Positions 7,143 to 33,221 of a DNA stretch of 64,000 nt are shown here, in pieces. Numbering within the stretch: position 1 is the first letter of the stretch; each line of letters opens with the position of its first letter. The notes beneath the pieces were generated by a model. That model searched no databases, was not told where the DNA came from, and saw only the letters and a program-made list of their open reading frames with translations. A program made the position numbers and the translations under genes. Where the stretch lies: assembly GCF_017312725.1 (NCBI RefSeq), contig NZ_BOPO01000130.1, forward strand, positions 62,001 to 126,000. The letters run 5' to 3'. Source of the stretch: Actinocatenispora comari (GTDB lineage Bacteria > Actinomycetota > Actinomycetes > Mycobacteriales > Micromonosporaceae).

Positions 7143-7910
7143 ATGAACTGTGCCCTCGAGGTCTCCTCGGCGACCGTGCGTTACGGCGGCGTCGCGGCCA
7201 TCGACGACCTGTCCTTCCAGCACGAAGACGGCGGTGTCGTCGGCCTGATCGGGCCGAACGGCGCCGGCAAGACCACCCTGCTGAACGTGCTGTCCGGCGC
7301 GGTCCGGCTCACCACCGGCCGGATTTCGTTGCAGGGGCGTGACCTCACCAGCCGCAAGCCGCACCAGATCGCCCGGCTCGGCATCACCCGCACCTTCCAG
7401 AACCTGCAGGTCTTCGGTTCACTGTCGGTGCTGGACAACGTGCTGCTGCCGCGGGTCGCGCGCGGCTGGGCGACCGCCGTCGGCGACATGGTGCTGCTGC
7501 CCCAGGCGCACCGAAAGGTCCAGGCCGAACGGGCCCGGGCACTCGACCTGCTCGACCGGGTCGGCATCGCCGAGTACGCCCAGCAGCCGGCCGGCTCGCT
7601 GGCGTACGGGCTGCAGCGGCGGGTGGAGATCGCCCGCGCACTGGCCGGCGACCCCGAGCTGATCCTGCTGGACGAGCCGCTCGCCGGGCTGTCCGCCTCG
7701 GAGAGCGTCGACCTCACCGAACTGTTCACCAAGGTGTCCACCGAGGGCATCACGGTGCTGCTGGTCGAGCACGACGTGGCCAGCGTGCTGTCGGTCTCCA
7801 AGCGGGTCCTGGTGCTCGACCACGGCCGGCTGCTCGCCGACGGGACGCCGGACGAGGTGTCCGCCAACCCCGAGGTCCGGGCCGCCTACCTCGGTGAGGA
7901 GTGGACATGA
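7143..7910 (+). CDS. livG: Branched-chain amino acid ABC transporter ATP-binding protein LivG
   Basis: A 255-residue cytoplasmic ATPase of the LivG type. Visible motifs are Walker A GPNGAGKTT (about residues 37-45), a signature region SLAYGLQRRVEIARAL and Walker B LILLDEPLAGLS. It powers import of branched-chain or related amino acids with LivF, LivH, LivM and a binding lipoprotein. The ATG start fits the family alignment (ALEVSSATVRYGGVAAIDDLSF) although no strong ribosome site precedes it. Its stop overlaps the livF start (ATGA at 7907-7910). It heads livGFHMJ. The second liv locus at 13-16 kb has no ATPase, so this protein may serve both. Confidence 0.93.
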   Translation: MNCALEVSSATVRYGGVAAIDDLSFQHEDGGVVGLIGPNGAGKTTLLNVLSGAVRLTTGRISLQGRDLTSRKPHQIARLGITRTFQNLQVFGSLSVLDNVLLPRVARGWATAVGDMVLLPQAHRKVQAERARALDLLDRVGIAEYAQQPAGSLAYGLQRRVEIARALAGDPELILLDEPLAGLSASESVDLTELFTKVSTEGITVLLVEHDVASVLSVSKRVLVLDHGRLLADGTPDEVSANPEVRAAYLGEEWT

Positions 7911-8674
7911 GCGAGCAGGCCGCGGAGGAGAAGACGCCGAGCGGTGCCGGCGACGGCGAGCTGGTGCTGTCGGTGACCGAGCTGGTCGCCGGGTACGACC
8001 GGATCGAGGCGCTGCACGGCATCGACATCGAGGTACGCGCCGGCGAGGCGGTGACGCTGATCGGCGCCAACGGTGCCGGCAAGACCACCCTGCTGGGCAC
8101 GATCGCGGGCCTGCTGAAGGCGTGGCGCGGCCGGATCCAGTTCGCCGGCGAGGACGTCACCCGGTGGTCGGCGGAACGGCGCACCCGCGCCGGGCTCGCC
8201 CTGGTACCGGAGGGCCGGCGGGTGTTCGCCGGCCTCACCGTCGAGGAGAACCTGCACCTCGGGGCGTACTCGCGGGCCCGGTCGTCCACCGCCGAGGGGC
8301 TCGCCACCGTGTACGAGCTGTTCCCGAAGCTGAAGGACCGCCGCCGGCAACCGGCCGGCACCATGTCCGGCGGCGAGCAGCAGATGCTCGCGATCGGCCG
8401 GGCGCTGATGAGCCGGCCCAAGCTGCTGCTGCTGGACGAGCCGTCACTGGGGCTCGCCCCGCTCGCGGTGCGCGAGGTGGCCGACGCGCTGGTCGAGCTG
8501 GCCGGCCGGGACACCACGCTGGCGCTGGTCGAGCAGAACGCGCAGGTCGCGTTCCACGTGGCGCAGCGCGGCTACCTGCTGGACCGCGGCCGCGTGGTGA
8601 CCGCCGGTTCGGTCGACGAGCTGCGCGACGACCCGCGGGTGCACCAGGCGTACCTGGGGCAGCCGGCCCAGTGA
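7907..8674 (+). CDS. livF: Branched-chain amino acid ABC transporter ATP-binding protein LivF
   Basis: A 255-residue LivF-type ATPase: Walker A GANGAGKTT, signature MSGGEQQMLAIGRAL and Walker B LLLLDEPSLGLAP, the last typical of LivF rather than LivG. I took the ATG at 7907 as start because GAGGAG lies six bases upstream and the codon overlaps the livG stop; the GTG at 7901 is less well placed. The first roughly 20 residues are a charged extension before the conserved LSVTELVAGYDRIEALHGI. It pairs with LivG to drive transport through LivHM. A 29-base gap separates it from livH. Confidence 0.93.
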   Translation: MSEQAAEEKTPSGAGDGELVLSVTELVAGYDRIEALHGIDIEVRAGEAVTLIGANGAGKTTLLGTIAGLLKAWRGRIQFAGEDVTRWSAERRTRAGLALVPEGRRVFAGLTVEENLHLGAYSRARSSTAEGLATVYELFPKLKDRRRQPAGTMSGGEQQMLAIGRALMSRPKLLLLDEPSLGLAPLAVREVADALVELAGRDTTLALVEQNAQVAFHVAQRGYLLDRGRVVTAGSVDELRDDPRVHQAYLGQPAQ

Positions 8675-8703
8675 ACAGCTGCAGAGCGGCGCGGTAGCGG
8701 CGC

Positions 8704-9576
8704 ATGTCGGAGTTTCTGACCTTCACCCTGACCGGCCTGGGCACCGGTACCACCTATGCCCTGGTCGGTCTCGGCGTCGCGATGGTCTTCCAGGTCACCG
8801 GCGTGATCAACTTCGCGCAGGGCGACTTCGTGATGATCGGCGGGCTGTCGTTCGCCAGCTTCGCCGAGGCCGGCCTGCCGGAGCCGGTCGCCGCGCTGCT
8901 CGCCCTGCTGATCACCACCGTGGTCGGCGCGCTGCTCAACCTGCTGGTGATCCGGCCGGCCCGGCGGGCCAACCGGGAACGGCTGGTCATCCTCACCATC
9001 GGCGCCTCGATCACCCTGGAGGGCGTCGCGCTGCTGGTGTTCGGCGCCGACTCGCACTTCGCCAGCGCGTTCACCGGCGGTGACCCGATCTCGATCGGCG
9101 GTGCGCGACTGCCCCGGCAGTACCTGTGGTGCGCCCTCGCCACGGTGGTCGCGGTCGTGCTGATGTGGCTGTTCCTGACCCGCACGCGGCCCGGTACGGC
9201 GATGCGGGCCACCGCGATGGACACCGACGCGGCCCGGCTGATGGGCATCTCGCCGGCCCGGATGAGCCTGCTCGCGTTCACCCTGGCGGCGGCGCTCGGC
9301 GCGATCGGCGGCATCGTGTTGACGCCGCTGCAGCCGCCGGACGCGTCGGTCGGCATTCCCTTCGGGCTCAAGGCGTTCACCGCGGCGGTGATCGGCGGGC
9401 TGTCGTCGCCGGTCGGCGCGGTGTTCGGCGGGCTGCTGGTGGGCCTGGTCGAGGCGTACGCGACCGGCTACATCAGCAGCGACTACAAGAACACGTTGAC
9501 CTTCGGGTTGCTGCTGCTGGTGCTGCTGATCCGGCCGACCGGACTGCTGCACCGGGCTTCGGTGGTGCGGGTATGA
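8704..9576 (+). CDS. livH: Branched-chain amino acid ABC transporter permease LivH
   Basis: A 290-residue polytopic membrane protein of the LivH family. The conserved opening (TGTTYALVGLGVAMVFQVTGVINFAQG) and the cytoplasmic MRATAMDTDAARLMGIS loop are both present, with about eight hydrophobic segments. It forms half of the transmembrane channel with LivM. Its stop codon overlaps the ATG of the first of two 13-codon mini-ORFs (9573), so translation can pass from livH through them to livM. The paralogue at 14422-15303 is the same length class and clearly similar. Confidence 0.93.
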   Translation: MSEFLTFTLTGLGTGTTYALVGLGVAMVFQVTGVINFAQGDFVMIGGLSFASFAEAGLPEPVAALLALLITTVVGALLNLLVIRPARRANRERLVILTIGASITLEGVALLVFGADSHFASAFTGGDPISIGGARLPRQYLWCALATVVAVVLMWLFLTRTRPGTAMRATAMDTDAARLMGISPARMSLLAFTLAAALGAIGGIVLTPLQPPDASVGIPFGLKAFTAAVIGGLSSPVGAVFGGLLVGLVEAYATGYISSDYKNTLTFGLLLLVLLIRPTGLLHRASVVRV

Positions 9577-9614
9577 CCGACGACGCACTCGCCGCCGCGG
9601 AGGAGCTGGGATGA
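9573..9614 (+). CDS. 13-residue mini-cistron 1 between livH and livM
   Basis: Encodes MTDDALAAAEELG. The ATG overlaps the livH stop (ATGA) and the TGA overlaps the next mini-ORF start. The peptide nearly matches the first residues of LivM (MSDDALAAAE), so it arose by duplication of that start region. Translation is likely from its position, but the peptide itself may be only a by-product of ribosome hand-over. Confidence 0.45.
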   Translation: MTDDALAAAEELG

Positions 9615-9652
9615 CCGACGACGCGCTCTCCACCGCGGAGGAGCTGGGATGA
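9611..9652 (+). CDS. 13-residue mini-cistron 2 between livH and livM
   Basis: Encodes MTDDALSTAEELG. Its ATG overlaps the first mini-ORF stop and its TGA overlaps the livM ATG at 9649. GGAGGAG lies five bases before its start and again before livM. It differs from mini-cistron 1 at two residues. No independent function is suggested by the sequence. Confidence 0.45.
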   Translation: MTDDALSTAEELG

Positions 9653-10707
9653 GCGACGACGCACTCGCCGCCGCGGAGCGGTCGGCGACCAGCGTGCTGC
9701 ATGCGGTGCTGCGGTCCCGGTGGCTGCGGTACGCGATCTTCCTCGGGGTGCTGGCGCTGGTGCCGGCGGTGTTCACCCGGGTGCCCTTCTACACCATGTC
9801 GGTCGGCGTGCTGATGGCGATCCAGGCGATCGCCGCGCTCGGGCTGATCCCGCTGACCGGCCACGCCGGGCAGATCTCGCTGGGGCAGGCGGCGTTCTTC
9901 GCGATCAGCGGCTACACCTCGGCGCTGCTGACCACCCGCTGGCACACCAACGCGCTGCTGGCGATGATCGCCGGGATGGCGTTGTCGGCCGCGGTCGCCT
10001 ACCTCGTCGGTACGTTCATCTTCCGGGCCCAGGGGCAGTACCTGGTGCTCGCCACGCTGTCGTTCGGGCTGCTCGTCAGCTACCTGGCCAACCAGCTGCC
10101 GCTCACCGGCGCGGCGGACGGCATCCCCGGCATCCCGGCGCTGGCACCGTTCGGCTTCACCATCTCCGGCGACGTCGACATGTACTACCTCGTCGCGCTG
10201 GTGCTGCTGATCGCGGTGATCGTGGTGGACGCGCTGCTGCGCTCGCCGGTCGGCAAGGCGCTGACCGCGCTGGGCGACAGTCCGGTCGCGACGGCCGCGG
10301 CGGGAGTGTCCATCGCCGGCCTGCGCCGCAACGCGTTCACGCTGGCCGCGGCGTTGTCCGCGCTCGCCGGCAGCCTGTACGCGCACTGGTCGACGTACAT
10401 GGATCCCGGCCAGGCCGGCATTCTCAGCTCGGTCCAGCTGCTGATCATCGCCACCATCGGCGGGCAACGGCTGGTCTGGGGGGCCCCGGTGGGCGCCTTC
10501 GTGGTGATCACGTTCTCGGAGGCGTCCAAAACCCTGATCCCCAAGGTGATCCCGCAGGCGACCGGCAACTACGAGATCGTGGTGTACGGGATCGCGCTGA
10601 TCGTCATCCTGCTGTTCCTGCCCCGGGGTGTGGGCGGCGGGCTGATCGGACTGGCCGGGCGACTCGCCCGGGCGGTACGCGGCCGGGAGGCAACCGCGGT
10701 GGACTGA
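9649..10707 (+). CDS. livM: Branched-chain amino acid ABC transporter permease LivM
   Basis: A 352-residue LivM-family permease. After a roughly 35-residue polar N-terminus come about nine hydrophobic segments and the conserved GLIPLTGHAGQISLGQAAFFAISGYTSA region. It pairs with LivH to form the membrane channel. The start is the third copy of a 38-bp repeat, with an optimal GGAGGAG site inherited from copy two, so its translation probably depends on two upstream 13-codon cistrons. A 46-base gap separates it from livJ. Confidence 0.93.
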   Translation: MSDDALAAAERSATSVLHAVLRSRWLRYAIFLGVLALVPAVFTRVPFYTMSVGVLMAIQAIAALGLIPLTGHAGQISLGQAAFFAISGYTSALLTTRWHTNALLAMIAGMALSAAVAYLVGTFIFRAQGQYLVLATLSFGLLVSYLANQLPLTGAADGIPGIPALAPFGFTISGDVDMYYLVALVLLIAVIVVDALLRSPVGKALTALGDSPVATAAAGVSIAGLRRNAFTLAAALSALAGSLYAHWSTYMDPGQAGILSSVQLLIIATIGGQRLVWGAPVGAFVVITFSEASKTLIPKVIPQATGNYEIVVYGIALIVILLFLPRGVGGGLIGLAGRLARAVRGREATAVD

Positions 10708-10753
10708 ACGTCCCACCTCACGGCCGAACCGGACACTCCGAGGAGGAGCACAC

Positions 10754-11938
10754 GTGTTTCAGCTACGGCGTACTGCTGCGGCCCTCAGCTGTGCCGCGCT
10801 GGCGGCGGCTGCGGTCGGGCTCAGCGGCTGCGCGGCCGACGAATCGAGCGCGTCGGACAGCAAGGGTGACATCAAGATCGGAGCCAGCCTCGAGCTGTCC
10901 GGTCCCACCCAGAGCATCGGCACCGTCTACAAGAAGGCGCTGCAGCTCGAGGTCGCGGACCTCAACAAGAAGGGTGTCCTGAACGGCCGCAAGCTCAAGC
11001 TGATCATCAAGGACAACGGCACCGACCCGGCCAAGAACACCACCAACATCAATGACTTCATCAAGAACGAGCACGTCGCAGCGCTGATCGACGGTGGCTG
11101 CTCGGCCTGCACGGTGCCGGTGACGAGCGTGGTCGAGAAGGCCAAGGTGCCGATGATCGCGCTCTCCTCGGCCAGCGCCGTGACCGAGCCGGTGGCGCAG
11201 CGGCAGTACACGTTCAAGATCTCGCCGAACCCGGCGCAGGACGCCGATGTGCTGATGACGTCGTTGAAGCAGAAGCACATCACCTCGATCGGGCTGCTCA
11301 ACGTCTCCAACACCTACGGGCAGGACGGCCGCAAGTCGGTGACCGCGCTGGCGAAGAAGAACGGCATCAAGGTGGTCAGCACCCAGTCGTTCGGCCAGGA
11401 CGACAAGGACATGAGCGCGCAGGCCACGAAGATCAAGAACGCGCACCCGGACGCGGTCGTGATGTGGGCGGTCATGCCGGCCGCCGGTATCGCCGCGAAG
11501 AACCTCGAGGACGCCGGGATCAAGGGCAACGAGGTCTACATGGACGCCGGTGCCGGTGCCGAGCTGTTCGTCAAGGGCGCGCAGAGCGCCGCCGAGGGCA
11601 CCCACATGGTGTTCCCGCAGACGCTCGCGATCAACGACGTCACCTCCACCACGCCGCAGGTCGCCGACCAGAAGCAGTGGTTCAAGGAGTACTCCTCGAA
11701 GTACGGGAACTACTCCGGCTTCGCCTCGTTCGCGGCCGACGCGCTGCGGATGATCAAGCAGGCGATCGAGAAGACCCAGGGCACCGACCACACCAAGCTG
11801 CGCGACGCCCTGGAGACGATGGGCATCGACGGGCTCTCCGGCCGGATCCAGAACTCGGCGAAGCAGCACTCCGGGCTGCAGGAGTCGGCGCTGGCCGTAC
11901 TGGAGGTCAAGAACGGCGAGTGGCACCTGAGCAACTGA
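10754..11938 (+). CDS. livJ: Branched-chain amino acid-binding lipoprotein LivJ
   Basis: A 394-residue periplasmic-binding-protein type I (Leu/Ile/Val-binding) lipoprotein. The GTG start follows CGAGGAGGAGC. A signal peptide ends in lipobox LSGC (Cys about 27), and the mature part begins with a Ser/Asp-rich linker then IKIGASLELSGPTQSIG, the family's ligand-domain opening. It captures substrate outside the membrane and delivers it to LivHM. Being last in the operon is unusual for a binding protein, whose product is usually needed in excess. The paralogue at 13238 is first in its own operon. Confidence 0.93.
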   Translation: MFQLRRTAAALSCAALAAAAVGLSGCAADESSASDSKGDIKIGASLELSGPTQSIGTVYKKALQLEVADLNKKGVLNGRKLKLIIKDNGTDPAKNTTNINDFIKNEHVAALIDGGCSACTVPVTSVVEKAKVPMIALSSASAVTEPVAQRQYTFKISPNPAQDADVLMTSLKQKHITSIGLLNVSNTYGQDGRKSVTALAKKNGIKVVSTQSFGQDDKDMSAQATKIKNAHPDAVVMWAVMPAAGIAAKNLEDAGIKGNEVYMDAGAGAELFVKGAQSAAEGTHMVFPQTLAINDVTSTTPQVADQKQWFKEYSSKYGNYSGFASFAADALRMIKQAIEKTQGTDHTKLRDALETMGIDGLSGRIQNSAKQHSGLQESALAVLEVKNGEWHLSN

Positions 11939-13237: not shown

Positions 13238-14422
13238 GTGTCCACGCGACACTGGGTAGCGGCTGGTCTTGCCGCAGTGGTGACACTCTCCGTCGGCACG
13301 GGCTGTGCCAAGGAGCAGAGTTCCGGCGGTGACGACAGCTCGCAGATCGTCATCGGGGCCGACCTCGAACTGTCCGGCCCCGCCGCGGTTCAGGGCGAGG
13401 CGTACCAGCGGGCGCTCAAGATGGTCCAGGCCGACATCAACAAGACCGGTATCAAGGTCGGCGACAAGACCAAGAAGGTCAAGCTGGTCATCCGGGACAA
13501 CAAGTCGGATCCGGCCGAGTCGCTGACGGTGGCGAAATCGCTGATCAACAACGACCACGTGGCGGCGATCGTCGGTGCCGGCGCGTCCCCCACCACCATG
13601 CCGATGATCCCGGTGGCCGAGAAGGCCAAGATCCCGATGATCTCCATGGGCTCGTCCGGCGCCATCGTCAACCCGGTCCAGAAGTACGTCTTCAAGACGC
13701 CGGGCAACACCGACGTCATCGGCAACGTCATGATGAAGGCGTTCGCCAAGAAGAAGATCAAGAAGATCGCCGTGCTGTCGGTGGACAACCCGTACGGTGA
13801 GGCCGGGCTGAAGGAGTGGCAGGCCCTCGACAAGGCCGGCAAGATCGACCTGGTCACGAACCAGAAGTTCTCCGACTCGGTCAAGGACCTGAGCGTGCAG
13901 GCGACGAAGGTGACCGCCGCGAAGCCGGACGCCGTCGTGGTGTGGGCGATCCCGCCGCAGTCCGGCCTGGCCGCGAAGGCGCTGCGGCAGAAGAAGTTCC
14001 CCGGCGACAAGGTGTACTACGACACCGGCGCCGGTTCGGAGCTGTTCGTCAAGGGCGCCGGTGCGGCGTCCGAGGGCTCGTACATGGTGCACTCCCGGGT
14101 GCTGGCCGGTAACGAGATCACCGCGACCACCCCGGCCGCGCAGACCGAGAAGAACTTCTTCACCGAGTACTCCGCCAAGTACGGCGGCTTCTCCGGCTTC
14201 GCGCCGATGGCCGCCGACGCGCTGAACCTGATCGTCGCCGCGATCAAGAAGGGTGGCTCCGCCGACCCGCAGGACATCCAGAAGTCGCTGGAGAACCTGA
14301 GCTACGACGGCGCGTTCGGCACGTACCAGTTCAGCCCGACCAACCACGGCGGGGTCAGTGAGTCCTCGTTGACCGTCCTTCAGGTGAAGAACGGGACGTG
14401 GTCTCTCAGCGATCTCGGCTGA
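13238..14422 (+). CDS. Branched-chain amino acid-type binding lipoprotein, second locus
   Basis: A 394-residue type I binding protein, paralogous to LivJ at 10754. The signal peptide ends at a Cys near residue 23 (VGTGC, an imperfect lipobox because -3 is Gly). The mature domain starts IVIGADLELSGPAAVQG. The GTG start follows CAGGGGGCG. It overlaps livH by one base (TGATG). Amino acid differences from LivJ, for example an SPTTMPMIP segment in place of SACTVPVTS in the ligand cleft region, suggest a different ligand preference, which is inference. No ATPase gene is linked. Confidence 0.92.
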   Translation: MSTRHWVAAGLAAVVTLSVGTGCAKEQSSGGDDSSQIVIGADLELSGPAAVQGEAYQRALKMVQADINKTGIKVGDKTKKVKLVIRDNKSDPAESLTVAKSLINNDHVAAIVGAGASPTTMPMIPVAEKAKIPMISMGSSGAIVNPVQKYVFKTPGNTDVIGNVMMKAFAKKKIKKIAVLSVDNPYGEAGLKEWQALDKAGKIDLVTNQKFSDSVKDLSVQATKVTAAKPDAVVVWAIPPQSGLAAKALRQKKFPGDKVYYDTGAGSELFVKGAGAASEGSYMVHSRVLAGNEITATTPAAQTEKNFFTEYSAKYGGFSGFAPMAADALNLIVAAIKKGGSADPQDIQKSLENLSYDGAFGTYQFSPTNHGGVSESSLTVLQVKNGTWSLSDLG

Positions 14423-15303
14423 TGAGCGAACTGCTGCAGTACGTGGTCACCGGTCTCACGACCGGGTCCGCATACGCCCTGGTGGGCCTGGGCATCGCCC
14501 TGATCGCCCAGGTCACCGGGGTGATCAACTTTGCTCAGGGTCAGTTCGTGATGCTCGCCGGGCTGCTGTTCGCGGTCCTTCAGGAGCACCGGGTACCGAC
14601 GGTGCTCGCGGCGCTCGCCGCGCTCGCGGTGACCGTACTGGTCGGGCTGGCCCTGGAGCGGCTGGTGCTGCCGCGGCAGGCCGCCGGGCGTACCGACCAG
14701 GCGATCATGCTGACCATCGGCGCCTCGATCGTCATCGAGGGCATCGCGTTCGTGACGATCGGTACCGAACCGAAGTTCGCCCGGCCGTTCACCGCCGGTG
14801 AGGCGCTGCGGTTCGGCGGCGCCTCGATGGACCGCCAGTACCTCTGGGTGATCGGCATCGCGGCGCTGGTGATGCTCGCGGTGTGGCTGGTGCTCACGCA
14901 CACCCGCACCGGCTGGGCGATGCGGGCCACCGCGATGGACCCGGACGCCGCCCGGCTGTCCGGCATCTCGCCGAGCCGGATGTCGCTGCTGGTGTTCCTC
15001 GCCGCGGCGGCGCTCGGCGCGATCGGCGGCATCGTGCTGGCCCCGCTGCAGTCGCCGGACGCGAGCGTCGGCATCGGGCTGGGGCTGAAGGGGTTCGCGG
15101 CGGCGGTGATCGGCGGGCTGGACCGGCCGGCCGGCGCGGTCGCCGGCGGTCTCGCCGTCGGCGTCGTCGAGGCGCTGGCGAGCGGGTACCTGCCGTCGTC
15201 CCAGTCCGGGTTCGCCGACGGCATCGCCTACGCGGTACTGCTGGTGGCACTGATCGCCCGGCCCACCGGGCTGCTGCGCCGAGTCACGGGGGAACGGGTC
15301 TGA
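14422..15303 (+). CDS. Branched-chain amino acid ABC transporter permease LivH, second locus
   Basis: A 293-residue LivH-type permease with the same conserved opening (GSAYALVGLGIALIAQVTGVINFAQG) and the MRATAMDPDAARLSGIS loop. The ATG at 14422 shares one base with the stop of the binding-protein gene. An in-frame GTG lies 24 bases upstream but inside that gene. It overlaps livM by one base as well, so all three genes of this locus are tightly coupled. It should form a channel with the adjacent LivM and use ATPases encoded elsewhere, most simply LivG and LivF at 7.1-8.7 kb. Confidence 0.92.
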   Translation: MSELLQYVVTGLTTGSAYALVGLGIALIAQVTGVINFAQGQFVMLAGLLFAVLQEHRVPTVLAALAALAVTVLVGLALERLVLPRQAAGRTDQAIMLTIGASIVIEGIAFVTIGTEPKFARPFTAGEALRFGGASMDRQYLWVIGIAALVMLAVWLVLTHTRTGWAMRATAMDPDAARLSGISPSRMSLLVFLAAAALGAIGGIVLAPLQSPDASVGIGLGLKGFAAAVIGGLDRPAGAVAGGLAVGVVEALASGYLPSSQSGFADGIAYAVLLVALIARPTGLLRRVTGERV

Positions 15304-16370
15304 TGGCCGCGACCGACACCGCACCGGCCGAGGCGCCGGGCGGGCTGCTCGACCGGGTGGACGCCAACCGGTTGCTGCGACCGCTGGTCCGGGTGGGCCT
15401 GCCGGCCGTGTTGCTGCTGATCGCGCTGCTGCTGATCCCGTTCGTGTTCACCCGGGTGGCGCCGTACACGATGTCGGACGGCGTGCTGCTGGTGCTGCTC
15501 GCCACCGCGTCGCTGGGGCTGGTGCCGCTGACCGGGTACGCCGGCCAGGTCTCGCTGGGGCAGGCGGCCTTCTACGGCACCGGCGCCTACACCACGGCGA
15601 TCCTGACCGTCCGGTACCACCAGAGCCCGCTGCTGGGCATCCTGGTCGGCCTGGTCGTGGCCGGGCTGCTGGCCTGGTTGCTGGGGTTGGCGCTGTTCCG
15701 GGCCGCGGGCCACTACCTGACCCTCGCCACGATCGCGGTCGGTCTGGTGCTCGCCGTCGTGGTCAAGCAGTTCGACCTGACCGGCGGCGCCGAGGGAATC
15801 TCCGGGCTGCCGGCGCTGTCGCTGGGCGGGCTGGAGTTCTCCGACGACGTGAGCTTCTTCTACCTGGCGGCCGGGGTCCTGGTGGTGGCGAGCCTGGTGG
15901 TGCAGCGGGTCTGCCGCTCGCAGCTGGGTACCACCCTGCTGGCGATCTCCGACTCGCCGATCGCGGCGCAGTCGGCCGGGGTGGACCCGGCGCCGCAGAA
16001 GCGGTTCGCGTTCGTGCTGGCCGCGGTGGTCAGCGCGCTGGCCGGCTCGCTCTACGCGCTGTGGTCCAGCTTCGTCGACGTGAACACGCTGGACCTGAAC
16101 CTGTCGCTGCAGCTGCTGATCATCGCCACCGTCGGCGGTCGGCGCAGCGTGTACGGGGCGACGGTCGGCGCGTTCGTCATCGTGTCGCTCGCCCGGTTCG
16201 CCAAGGAGTGGCTGCCGGCGGTGTCCAGTCACGCCGGCGGTCAGGTCGAGATCATCGCCTACGGCCTGGCGCTGATCCTGGTACTGCGGCTGCTCCCGCG
16301 CGGCATCGTCGGCGCCATCGCGGCGTCGTTGAAGCGTCTGGTGACGCCGACGGCGAAGGCGTCCGAGTAG
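15303..16370 (+). CDS. Branched-chain amino acid ABC transporter permease LivM, second locus
   Basis: A 355-residue LivM-type permease with the conserved GLVPLTGYAGQVSLGQAAFYGTGAYTTA region and about nine hydrophobic segments after a roughly 35-residue polar N-terminus. It lacks the 38-bp start repeats of the first locus and overlaps livH directly by one base. It is the last gene of this three-gene operon and is followed by a strong hairpin at 16396-16432. Pairs with the LivH at 14422. Confidence 0.92.
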   Translation: MAATDTAPAEAPGGLLDRVDANRLLRPLVRVGLPAVLLLIALLLIPFVFTRVAPYTMSDGVLLVLLATASLGLVPLTGYAGQVSLGQAAFYGTGAYTTAILTVRYHQSPLLGILVGLVVAGLLAWLLGLALFRAAGHYLTLATIAVGLVLAVVVKQFDLTGGAEGISGLPALSLGGLEFSDDVSFFYLAAGVLVVASLVVQRVCRSQLGTTLLAISDSPIAAQSAGVDPAPQKRFAFVLAAVVSALAGSLYALWSSFVDVNTLDLNLSLQLLIIATVGGRRSVYGATVGAFVIVSLARFAKEWLPAVSSHAGGQVEIIAYGLALILVLRLLPRGIVGAIAASLKRLVTPTAKASE

Positions 16371-17756: not shown

Positions 17757-17904
17757 CGCTGCTCCCTTGCCGCCCCGGGCCGCCCGCCGGGTACTTCCCC
17801 GGCACGACCCGGGTGCCACTGATCTTGCGCTCGCGAGCTTGCCAGCCCTGCCGACCGAAGGCAATACGACGGCAATCCCCGCTGGCTCACACCCGCGCTG
17901 TCCC

Positions 17905-18010
17905 GGATCGTCCCGGCCGGCACGCGCGCCTTCCCGGCCGGCCTCGGATCGTCCCGGCCCCGGATCATCCCGGCCGGCCCCGGATCGTCCCGGCGGGCGC
18001 GGATCGCGGA
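17905..18010. repeat. Cluster of GGATCGTCCCGG repeats
   Basis: GGATCGTCCC or one-mismatch versions begin at 17905, 17946, 17962 and 17982, with a degenerate GGATC at 18001. Spacing is irregular (41, 16, 20, 19). It fills much of the 316-base gap between the P450 and aldehyde dehydrogenase genes. I see no gene in this gap. Confidence 0.6.
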
Positions 18011-31791: not shown

Positions 31792-33221
31792 CAGCCGTTC
31801 CACCCCTTCGCCAGATTCTGTCCGATCGTGCCGACCCGCTGCGCCCGCAGCCGGAACACCGCCTTCACCAGCGCCGGCGCCGCCACGAAGATGACGATCA
31901 ACGACTGGATGATCGTCGAGACCTCCAGCGGGATCTGCGAGGTCACCTGCATCTGCGACGCGCCGGCCTGCAGCGCGCCGAACAGCAGCCCGGCCAGTAC
32001 GGTCCCGACCGGCTTGCCGCGGCCCAGCAGCGCCACGGTGATGCCGTCGAAGCCGATGTTGCCGACCACCGACGGGGTGATCGAGTTCGGCGTGTTGCCC
32101 AAAACGATGGCCGCGCCGCCGAGCCCGGCCAGCGCGCCGGCGAAGATCATCACCAGCAGGTAGGTGCGGTCGATGTTGATCCCGGCGGTACGGGAGGCGT
32201 TCGGGTTCGAGCCGACCGCCCGGAACTCGAAGCCGAGGGTGGAGCGCCGCAACAGCCAGGACACCCCGATCGCGGCCGCGACCACCAGGATGATCGCCAG
32301 GTTCGCCCGCAGCCCGCTGCCGAACAGGTGCGGCAGCTGCGCGTTGTCCACCACCGGCTTGCTGATCGGGTCGTTGCGGCCCGGCTGCTGGATCCCGTGC
32401 TGGACCACCAGCCAGGTCACGAAGCTCGGCGCGGCGATGTAGTTGAGCATGATCGTGGTGATCACCTCGTGCGCGCCGAACTTGGCCTTCAACCAGCCGG
32501 CGATCAGGCCCCAGATGCTGCCGCCGAGCAGGCCGCCGAGCACCGCCGCGATCACGCCGATCACCGGCGGCCAGGGCAGTACGAAACCGACCAGGCCGGC
32601 GCCGATCGCGCCCATCATCGCCTGGCCCTGCGCGCCGATGTTGAACATGCCGGCCCGGAACGCCAGGCCGACCGCGAGGCCGGTACCGATCAGCGGCGCC
32701 GCGTAGGTCAGCGTCTCCGAGATCGGCGTCAGCACCTGGGTCCAGCTCGCCATCCCCCACCAGGCGTAGTTCAGCGTCTCCGGGTCGACGATCGAGCCGG
32801 TGAACAGCGCCGCGTACGCGGTGGAGACCGCCTGCCACGCCGCCGAGAAGGTGTCGCCCGGCCGGCTGAAGAAGTACTGCATGGAGTCCAGCACCTGCTG
32901 GTCGGACAGCGCGATGACCAGCGCACCGACCACCAGCGCCAGGACGACCGCGAGCACCGTGACGGTGGCGGTGTTCGCCGTGGTCAGCGCGTCGATGACG
33001 ATCGCGGTACGGGTGCGCCGCGGGTCACCGGCCTTCCCGTCCCGCGCTTTCGGCGTGCCGCCCTTCCCGTCCTGTGCCTTCGGCGTGCCGCCCGTCGGCT
33101 TCGCGTCGGGGTCGCCGGCCCGGCTCGCCGGAGTGGGCTGACCGGTCGGCTCGTCGTCGCGGCCCGGGGTGTGCCCCGCCGCGCCGGAGTCGTCCGCCGG
33201 CTTCTCGTCGTCGCTACTCAT
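31791..33221 (-). CDS. Nucleoside ABC transporter permease (NupP/YufP-like) with acidic N-terminal extension
   Basis: A 476-residue RbsC-family permease. The core has the conserved [25 protein letters not shown] block and about ten helices. The first roughly 75 residues are a polar, Asp/Gly/Pro-rich tail containing the repeat [20 protein letters not shown], encoded by two tandem 30-base units at 33032-33090. The ATG at 33221 follows GGAGGACGGCG and overlaps the ATPase gene by eight bases (its TAG lies inside the second and third codons). The extension is unlikely to matter for transport but shows recent repeat growth. Confidence 0.9.

Follow-up and report, generated by a model that had tools for sequence, protein, structure and literature searches.

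A chain of 38-nt repeats joins livH to livM

The window, a 64,000-nucleotide stretch of the Actinocatenispora comari genome, contains two neighbouring branched-chain amino-acid transporter clusters, at 7143-11938 and 13238-16343. The second cluster holds a livM-like match (48% identical) and two ORFs that are presumably livK- and livH-like. At the livH-livM junction of the first cluster, we annotated the following features, where R1 denotes one of two models of the repeat unit:

8704..9576, + strand: livH, branched-chain amino-acid permease (Pfam BPD_transp_2, E 6.3e-44)
9573..9614, + strand: repeat unit 1 / mini-cistron 1, MTDDALAAAEELG and stop (R1, E 3.2e-12; the unit is among the R1 training set)
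9599..9605, + strand: GGAGGAG, Shine-Dalgarno-like, 5 nt 5' of ATG 9611 (sequence)
9611..9652, + strand: repeat unit 2 / mini-cistron 2, MTDDALSTAEELG and stop (R1, E 3.3e-12; the unit is among the R1 training set)
9637..9643, + strand: GGAGGAG, Shine-Dalgarno-like, 5 nt 5' of ATG 9649 (sequence)
9649..9678, + strand: repeat unit 3, truncated, fused in frame to livM (R1, E 3.7e-5)
9683..9684, + strand: junction with 2 nt fewer in the window than in the sister genome G002 (alignment with G002)
9649..10707, + strand: livM, branched-chain amino-acid permease, 352 aa (Pfam BPD_transp_2, E 3.2e-27)

The array (9573-9678) consists of three direct copies that start at 9573, 9611 and 9649, at a spacing of 38 and 38 nt, with copies 2 and 3 being 84% and 88% identical, respectively, to copy 1 over 43 nt. 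Tandem Repeats Finder returned 19 rows for the window, and the array had the top score (184 versus 106 for the next row). Other tandem repeats were reported at 17904-18006 (20 nt, 5.3 copies) and 33028-33093 (30 nt, 2.2 copies). An assembly artefact at the array is unlikely, because the three copies differ from each other.

As an earlier sequence-only reading of the window had proposed, livH, two mini-ORFs and livM are chained by three successive ATGA overlaps, at 9573, 9611 and 9649, and both mini-cistrons (9573-9614 and 9611-9652) are 13 codons long. The TGA of livH sits within the first ATGA of the array (9573-9576). The same reading had given each of the three repeats an ATG and a GGAGGAG; all three ATGs are present and GGAGGAG follows copies 1 and 2, but copy 3 is shortened (9649-9678) and runs on as GGAGCGG instead. 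On the 5' side of the first ATG, livH offers only GGTGGTGCGGGT and no GGAGGAG.

The unit is dispersed within the genus and sited mostly at gene starts

The repeat belongs to a dispersed family with a characteristic siting and orientation. We compared the window genome (G000) with the other three of the four genomes of its genus (G001, G002 and G003), G002 being that of the sister species. A BLAST search of window positions 9500-9750 against the window genome yielded nine matches: the query itself, six rows at five other unit-bearing places (C25, C90, C50 with two rows, C39 and C115; 75-87% identity), all five of which are gene starts, and two weak rows (C64 and C150) that were not accepted as units. 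When the unit core, stripped of the overlaps, was used as a pattern on the forward and reverse strands, it matched 25, 17, 25 and 15 times in the four genomes, compared with 4, 3, 1 and 0 matches for the reversed pattern. At two or fewer mismatches, the core pattern identified eight places in the window genome, namely, six arrays at gene starts, one position in coding sequence (C8:87792) and one on C30.

Model R1 was trained on 22 units, and model R2 was trained on 13, most of which belong to a second subfamily. The consensus of subfamily A is ATGACCGACGACGCGCTC..CCGCCGCGGAGGAGGC.G.ATGA, and that of subfamily B is NTGAGCACCGCCGACGTGATC..TCCCGCGGAGGCGGC-NTGA; both are 38 nt long, with 3 nt gained near the start offset by 3 nt lost towards the end. 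A census restricted to R1 or R2 matches at E<=1e-4, with neighbours merged into loci, comprised 29 loci in the four genomes (G000, 12; G002, 9; G003, 6; G001, 2), and by our own count at this threshold, the 12 loci of the window genome hold 26 units. The repeat lies at a gene start and on the same strand as the gene at 26 of the 29 loci and within coding regions at the other three (G002 1778824, included with a printed value of 1.0e-4; G003 3382252; and G001 C31), a siting that is partly by construction, as the training units contain overlaps. Twenty of the 29 loci had been used in a model. The nine that are in neither model include the three in coding regions and six at gene starts (C123, C45 and C13 in the window genome, otsAB and 6630727 in G002, and C46 in G001), three of which have an orthologue among the training units. 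E-values are rough, with R1 matching 300 of 300 family genomes at E<=0.05, and weaker matches (e.g., G002 2668840, G002 4142395, and G001 C13, C21 and C12) lie outside the census.

Relatives of the unit core appear to lie inside coding regions or at their ends at G003:C1:3382252-3382356 (L069), G001:C31:200373-200404 (L067) and G002:C1:4142395-4142459 (L215), and two of these three show 39-nt steps. The G001 C31 copy is seemingly antisense in a gene that we take to be methylmalonyl-CoA-mutase-like, and junction alignment with the other three genomes of the genus found no copy at that place.

Most of the scanned ORFs that flank the units fall in known families (Pfam and NCBIfam). The host pairs comprise oppD-oppF-type ABC ATPases, otsA-otsB, PadR-ABC ATPase, peptide permeases, livH-livM, a HisKA_3 histidine kinase with a NarL-type regulator, IclR-sugar permease, solute-binding protein-permease, PAPS reductase-CbiX (cysH-cbiX) and argC-argJ, in which ArgJ was assigned by Pfam and the upstream product is presumably ArgC. 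One host gene, clpS, is without an upstream partner. No NCBIfam model matched the downstream ORFs at C115 and C45 at 1e-10, and no Pfam model matched that at G002 2668840; the family scan excluded the downstream ORFs of G001 C46, G099, G128 and G270.

Unit length preserves a series of 4-nt overlaps

Within its 38 nt, the unit has an overlap at the start, 13 codons, GGAGGAG or GGAGGCGG near the 3' end and a new ATGA or GTGA at the end. The overlap series is intact across arrays: an unbroken succession of 4-nt overlaps (ATGA/GTGA) leads from the first unit to the downstream gene at 22 of the 26 gene-start loci, and across all genera, this holds for 34 of the 38 junction loci examined, a description and not an unbiased rate. 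The 38 loci are the 26 of the census, G002 2668840 and 11 from other genera that were picked as junction-like; G008 C610, C421, C552 and C316 and G005 C707 and C566 were left out. The series is broken at oppDF in G002, where the first unit is fused to the upstream ORF, at the G002 kinase-regulator junction, where the final ATGA reads ATGG, and at C115 and its G002 counterpart, which have no start.

Because 38 leaves a remainder of 2 on division by 3, the overlap series survives however many units are placed head to tail. A 39-nt step instead extends a single mini-ORF, with the total array length remaining 2 mod 3 (e.g., 38+39+39 = 116). Mini-ORFs of 13 codons predominate, with one of 14 and two of 21; arrays with 39-nt steps form a single ORF of 26, 39, 50 or 52 codons, and one 35-nt unit occurs in G002. 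An open 39-nt frame is not diagnostic in itself, the +2 frame also being open in 34 of 34 listed units. At the Peripla_BP_4-permease junction (L213, L163 and L238), a 21-codon mini-ORF (MNSVEAGG...) is present in the window genome, in G002 and, by eye, in G003, with an additional 38-nt unit in G002 only; this mini-ORF is perhaps an old, decayed unit.

Relatives without the unit carry a bare overlap

Using one joined query, we located the sequence downstream of 20 sites in each of the four genus genomes and then aligned the junctions. Eight sites have a relative without the unit, in every case with a bare ATGA or GTGA, and these comprise five clean cases and three with nearby differences. At C5, the window genome has 116 nt between two ATGAs, and G002 (flank 99% identical) and G003 have a single uninterrupted ATGA. 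The clpS site is filled by 38 nt in the window genome and is empty in G002. G003 has a bare ATGA at the kinase-regulator junction, and G002 and G001 have a bare GTGA at the GFO/IDH-TIM barrel junction. The argC-argJ junction carries the unit in G064 and G005 and a bare GTGA in G045, a congener of G064; the end of argC could be located at 24 of 31 loci, among which, by eye, argJ begins in ATGA or GTGA at 10 and follows a unit at 2, the rest having other spacers. Less clean are oppD-oppF (G003), PadR-ABC (G003) and cysH-cbiX (G002 and the window genome), where ATGA or GTGA is present without a unit and the adjoining sequence differs too. Insertion into a pre-existing overlap would be the simplest account of the bare relatives, the alternative being repeated precise loss, and we infer that the units move, rather than having been lost on many separate occasions.

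At L245 (G000:C111, GFO/IDH-TIM), an array of four in G003 corresponds to seemingly one decayed unit in the window genome and to no unit in G001 and G002.

Copy number differs between species at orthologous junctions

The sequence-only reading had suggested that copy number could vary, and inspection of the livH-livM junction in relatives bore this out, with three units in the window and one in G002. In comparisons between species only, copy number also differs at the kinase-regulator junction (1 versus 5), at otsAB (4 in the window genome, 2 in G002 and 1 in G003), at the solute-binding protein-permease junction (3 in the window genome versus 2 in G003) and at C45 (2 in the window genome versus 4 in G002). 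Unit identity at oppDF was 0.965 and 0.895 within arrays versus 0.868 between orthologues (the fused first G002 unit was left out), and at the solute-binding locus, it was 0.895 and 1.0 within versus 0.816 between. At otsAB, units are equally alike within (0.987 and 1.0) and between (0.993) the two species, and homogenization of arrays is therefore not general.

Such differences at orthologous junctions (livHM, 3/1; kinase-regulator, 1/5; otsAB, 4/2/1), together with the many hosts that form two-component pairs or encode subunits of a single transporter, would fit a selected rheostat, in which unit number is tuned because every round of termination and reinitiation would shift the amount of downstream relative to upstream protein, either down or up (LivM versus LivH). 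However, the same unit is found at unrelated junctions (clpS, argC-argJ and cysH-cbiX), and orthologous junctions of relatives do without it, and we regard such tuning as unlikely. The units are most likely near-neutral passengers, which would survive by keeping translation of the downstream gene intact.

Tests of RNA structure and of the encoded peptides

If the unit were maintained for some property of its DNA or RNA (a promoter, a hairpin or a protein site), its ORF would be incidental. In favor of this, mycobacterial interspersed repetitive units (MIRUs) are reported, in the accessible parts of two papers, to change promoter activity or transcription according to their copy number (PMC4128351, PMC3635867), and B units can fold a hairpin, CCGCC..GGCGG (alignment A2), that includes the ribosome site and has 94% of its cells paired. 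Against it, six of seven arrays folded no better than their shuffles (z 0.16 to 1.89), the seventh, of B type, reaching a z of -1.63; the B hairpin has a single covarying pair, and 45 of 500 shuffles pair equally well. Unlike REP-like palindromic repeats, A-type arrays did not fold better than their shuffles, and the hairpin of B units is a possible, weakly supported one. Near livHM, no Rfam family reached its cutoff, and none of three sub-threshold matches lay within the array. We consider a nucleic acid feature very unlikely as the reason for which the unit is kept.

We also weighed whether the 13-residue peptides themselves act, as a small-protein family or a nascent-chain signal. The peptides are alike across loci and genera (M-S/T-DDAL..AEE and MSTADVI.PAEAA), as this would predict. 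However, change showed no excess at third codon positions in 17 A units (p=0.50) or in 14 of the 17 B units (p=0.71; the other 3 have a differing offset and were omitted), and the codons that differ in pairwise comparison are mostly non-synonymous (A, 601/752; B, 487/577). In-frame 39-nt steps, moreover, merge several copies into one longer peptide. Peptide action is thus highly improbable: as third codon positions are no more variable than the others, the peptide sequence is probably unimportant, and the start, the stop, the ribosome site and the length would be what is kept.

Unit 3 is the most likely source of the livM start codon

Beside the junction, G002 and the window are 95% identical in livH (570 of 599 columns) and 96% identical in livM (479 of 500). 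G002 has a single unit, followed by a separate livM ATG. The window is 2 nt shorter after 9683, lacks the G002-type livM ATG and has unit 3 in the livM reading frame; the sequence between the livH stop and 9649 contains no in-frame ATG, GTG or TTG. Because the G002-type ATG is gone and no other in-frame start precedes 9649, the start codon and initial residues of livM (MSDDALAAAE) most likely come from unit 3, in place of the old start. A GTG at livM codon 16 could serve as an alternative start, weaker than the repeat ATG. The claim of the sequence-only reading that the livM start region had been triplicated locally accords with three tandem copies that end in livM but is contradicted by the dispersal of the unit over many unrelated junctions and by the sister species, in which one unit precedes a livM start of different sequence, and it is extremely improbable.

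Junction units occur in other genera of the same family

Junction units were found only in the window's own family (f1), which we take to be Micromonosporaceae. Outside the genus, they occurred at E<=1e-6 in four genera (g43, g16, g6 and g4), with a weaker junction unit in genus g3 (5.4e-5), and five of these out-of-genus sites are absent from both models (G099, G128, G064 C46, G064 C460 and G270). A further match at the level of the out-of-genus junction units, G008 C610, is not at a junction, and other-genus matches at 3e-6 to 1e-5 (L142, L143 and L145) lie in long open frames, not at junctions. In class samples of 246 genomes each, searched at E<=1e-5, R1 had two matches outside the family and R2 had one, and no full junction unit was found there with either model. 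Both R1 matches are within long open frames and were rejected as units. The R2 match (G302, L301), from another family of the same order, consists of the B-unit-like last codons of an ORF that closes in GTGA; there is no overlap at the start of the match, and the frame from its GTG closes after 13 codons. We did not count it as a unit, yet it is no plain negative.

A proposed mobile translational relay

We are fairly confident that the livH-livM array is one locus of a dispersed short-repeat family that resides in stop/start overlaps and would relay ribosomes, its units most likely being near-neutral passengers. A unit would take up residence in the 4-nt ATGA or GTGA overlap of adjacent genes, or at a lone ATGA start, where it would capture the stop of the upstream gene and pass ribosomes to the downstream gene. 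A ribosome that finishes the upstream gene would re-enter at the unit, whose GGAGGAG would serve to hand it on. From the anatomy of the unit, we infer translation of the units and passage of ribosomes along the array by termination-reinitiation.

With less assurance, we lean towards the view that start-codon-seeking repeats have arisen independently outside mycobacteria and that the present family is such a lineage: a mobile translational relay of 38 nt, with a length rule that spares operons and the ability to donate start codons, as at livM. Under this rule, length would be 2 mod 3 at overlaps and 0 mod 3 when extending one mini-ORF or inside coding regions, which would allow spread and expansion through operons without breakage. 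If the relay works as proposed, it would be a stackable translational coupler of natural origin and an example of a repeat furnishing a gene's start codon.

Comparison with known repeats

MIRUs were reportedly described by Supply et al. in 1997. The statement of the sequence-only reading that no system of this type had been described does not stand beside them: as far as the accessible part of a 2025 review goes, MIRUs are apparently mobile, insert at start codons and have an internal ORF coupled at -4 nt (PMC12548453). According to the accessible parts of further papers, senX3-regX3 carries two versus three MIRU copies of 77 bp (PMC9392950), a 77-nt class I MIRU forms an entire 5' UTR (PMC4128351), MIRUs are 46-101 bp long and occupy 41 loci (PMC3914561), some are said to be inside coding regions (PMC3635867), and MIRU copy number is in wide typing use, with the role of the repeats said to be poorly understood (PMC2734929, PMC3635867).

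Like MIRUs, so far as these sources describe them, the present family is scattered over a single chromosome (12 loci in the window genome), is sited at start codons or stop/start overlaps (26/29 loci), has an internal ORF that overlaps its neighbours by 4 nt (22/26 and 34/38 loci), appears to insert into existing overlaps, judging from the eight sites with unit-less relatives, and varies in tandem copy number, here between species (3/1, 1/5, 4/2/1, 3/2 and 2/4). Both families have a two-component host junction (senX3-regX3 for MIRUs and a HisKA_3 kinase with a NarL-type regulator here) and some copies in coding regions (PMC3635867), and the 77 nt of the class I MIRU are likewise 2 mod 3. They differ in that the 38-nt unit, which also occurs in 39-nt steps, is under the 46-101 bp given for MIRUs in the accessible text (PMC3914561) and was found in the window's family only. 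The 38-nt family would work like MIRUs, the closest known kind; since its length falls outside their range and the likeness is by described siting and architecture, not by MIRU sequence, we do not file it as a MIRU.

REP, ERIC, BOX, RUP, STAR and BRE elements are, in the available portions of the sources, likewise short, dispersed, apparently non-autonomous and mostly intergenic (PMC3733652, PMC3532100, PMC3110155). REP elements, however, are palindromic, and BRE elements, ~90 bp long and mostly intergenic, are not described in the accessible text as coupled to start codons (PMC3110155), whereas the 38-nt unit sits in a stop/start overlap with its own start, stop and ribosome site. Coupled leader ORFs and bicistronic designs resemble it in that a short upstream ORF brings ribosomes to the next gene (PMC12548453, accessible part); those are single-locus, whereas here the leader is a dispersed repeat. 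In the literature searched, mostly excluding subscription journals, we recognized no start-codon repeat of the 38-nt kind outside mycobacteria. The family described here would thus be a second one with MIRU-like siting, at half the length, and its filled and bare alleles in closely related genomes make function and spread testable.
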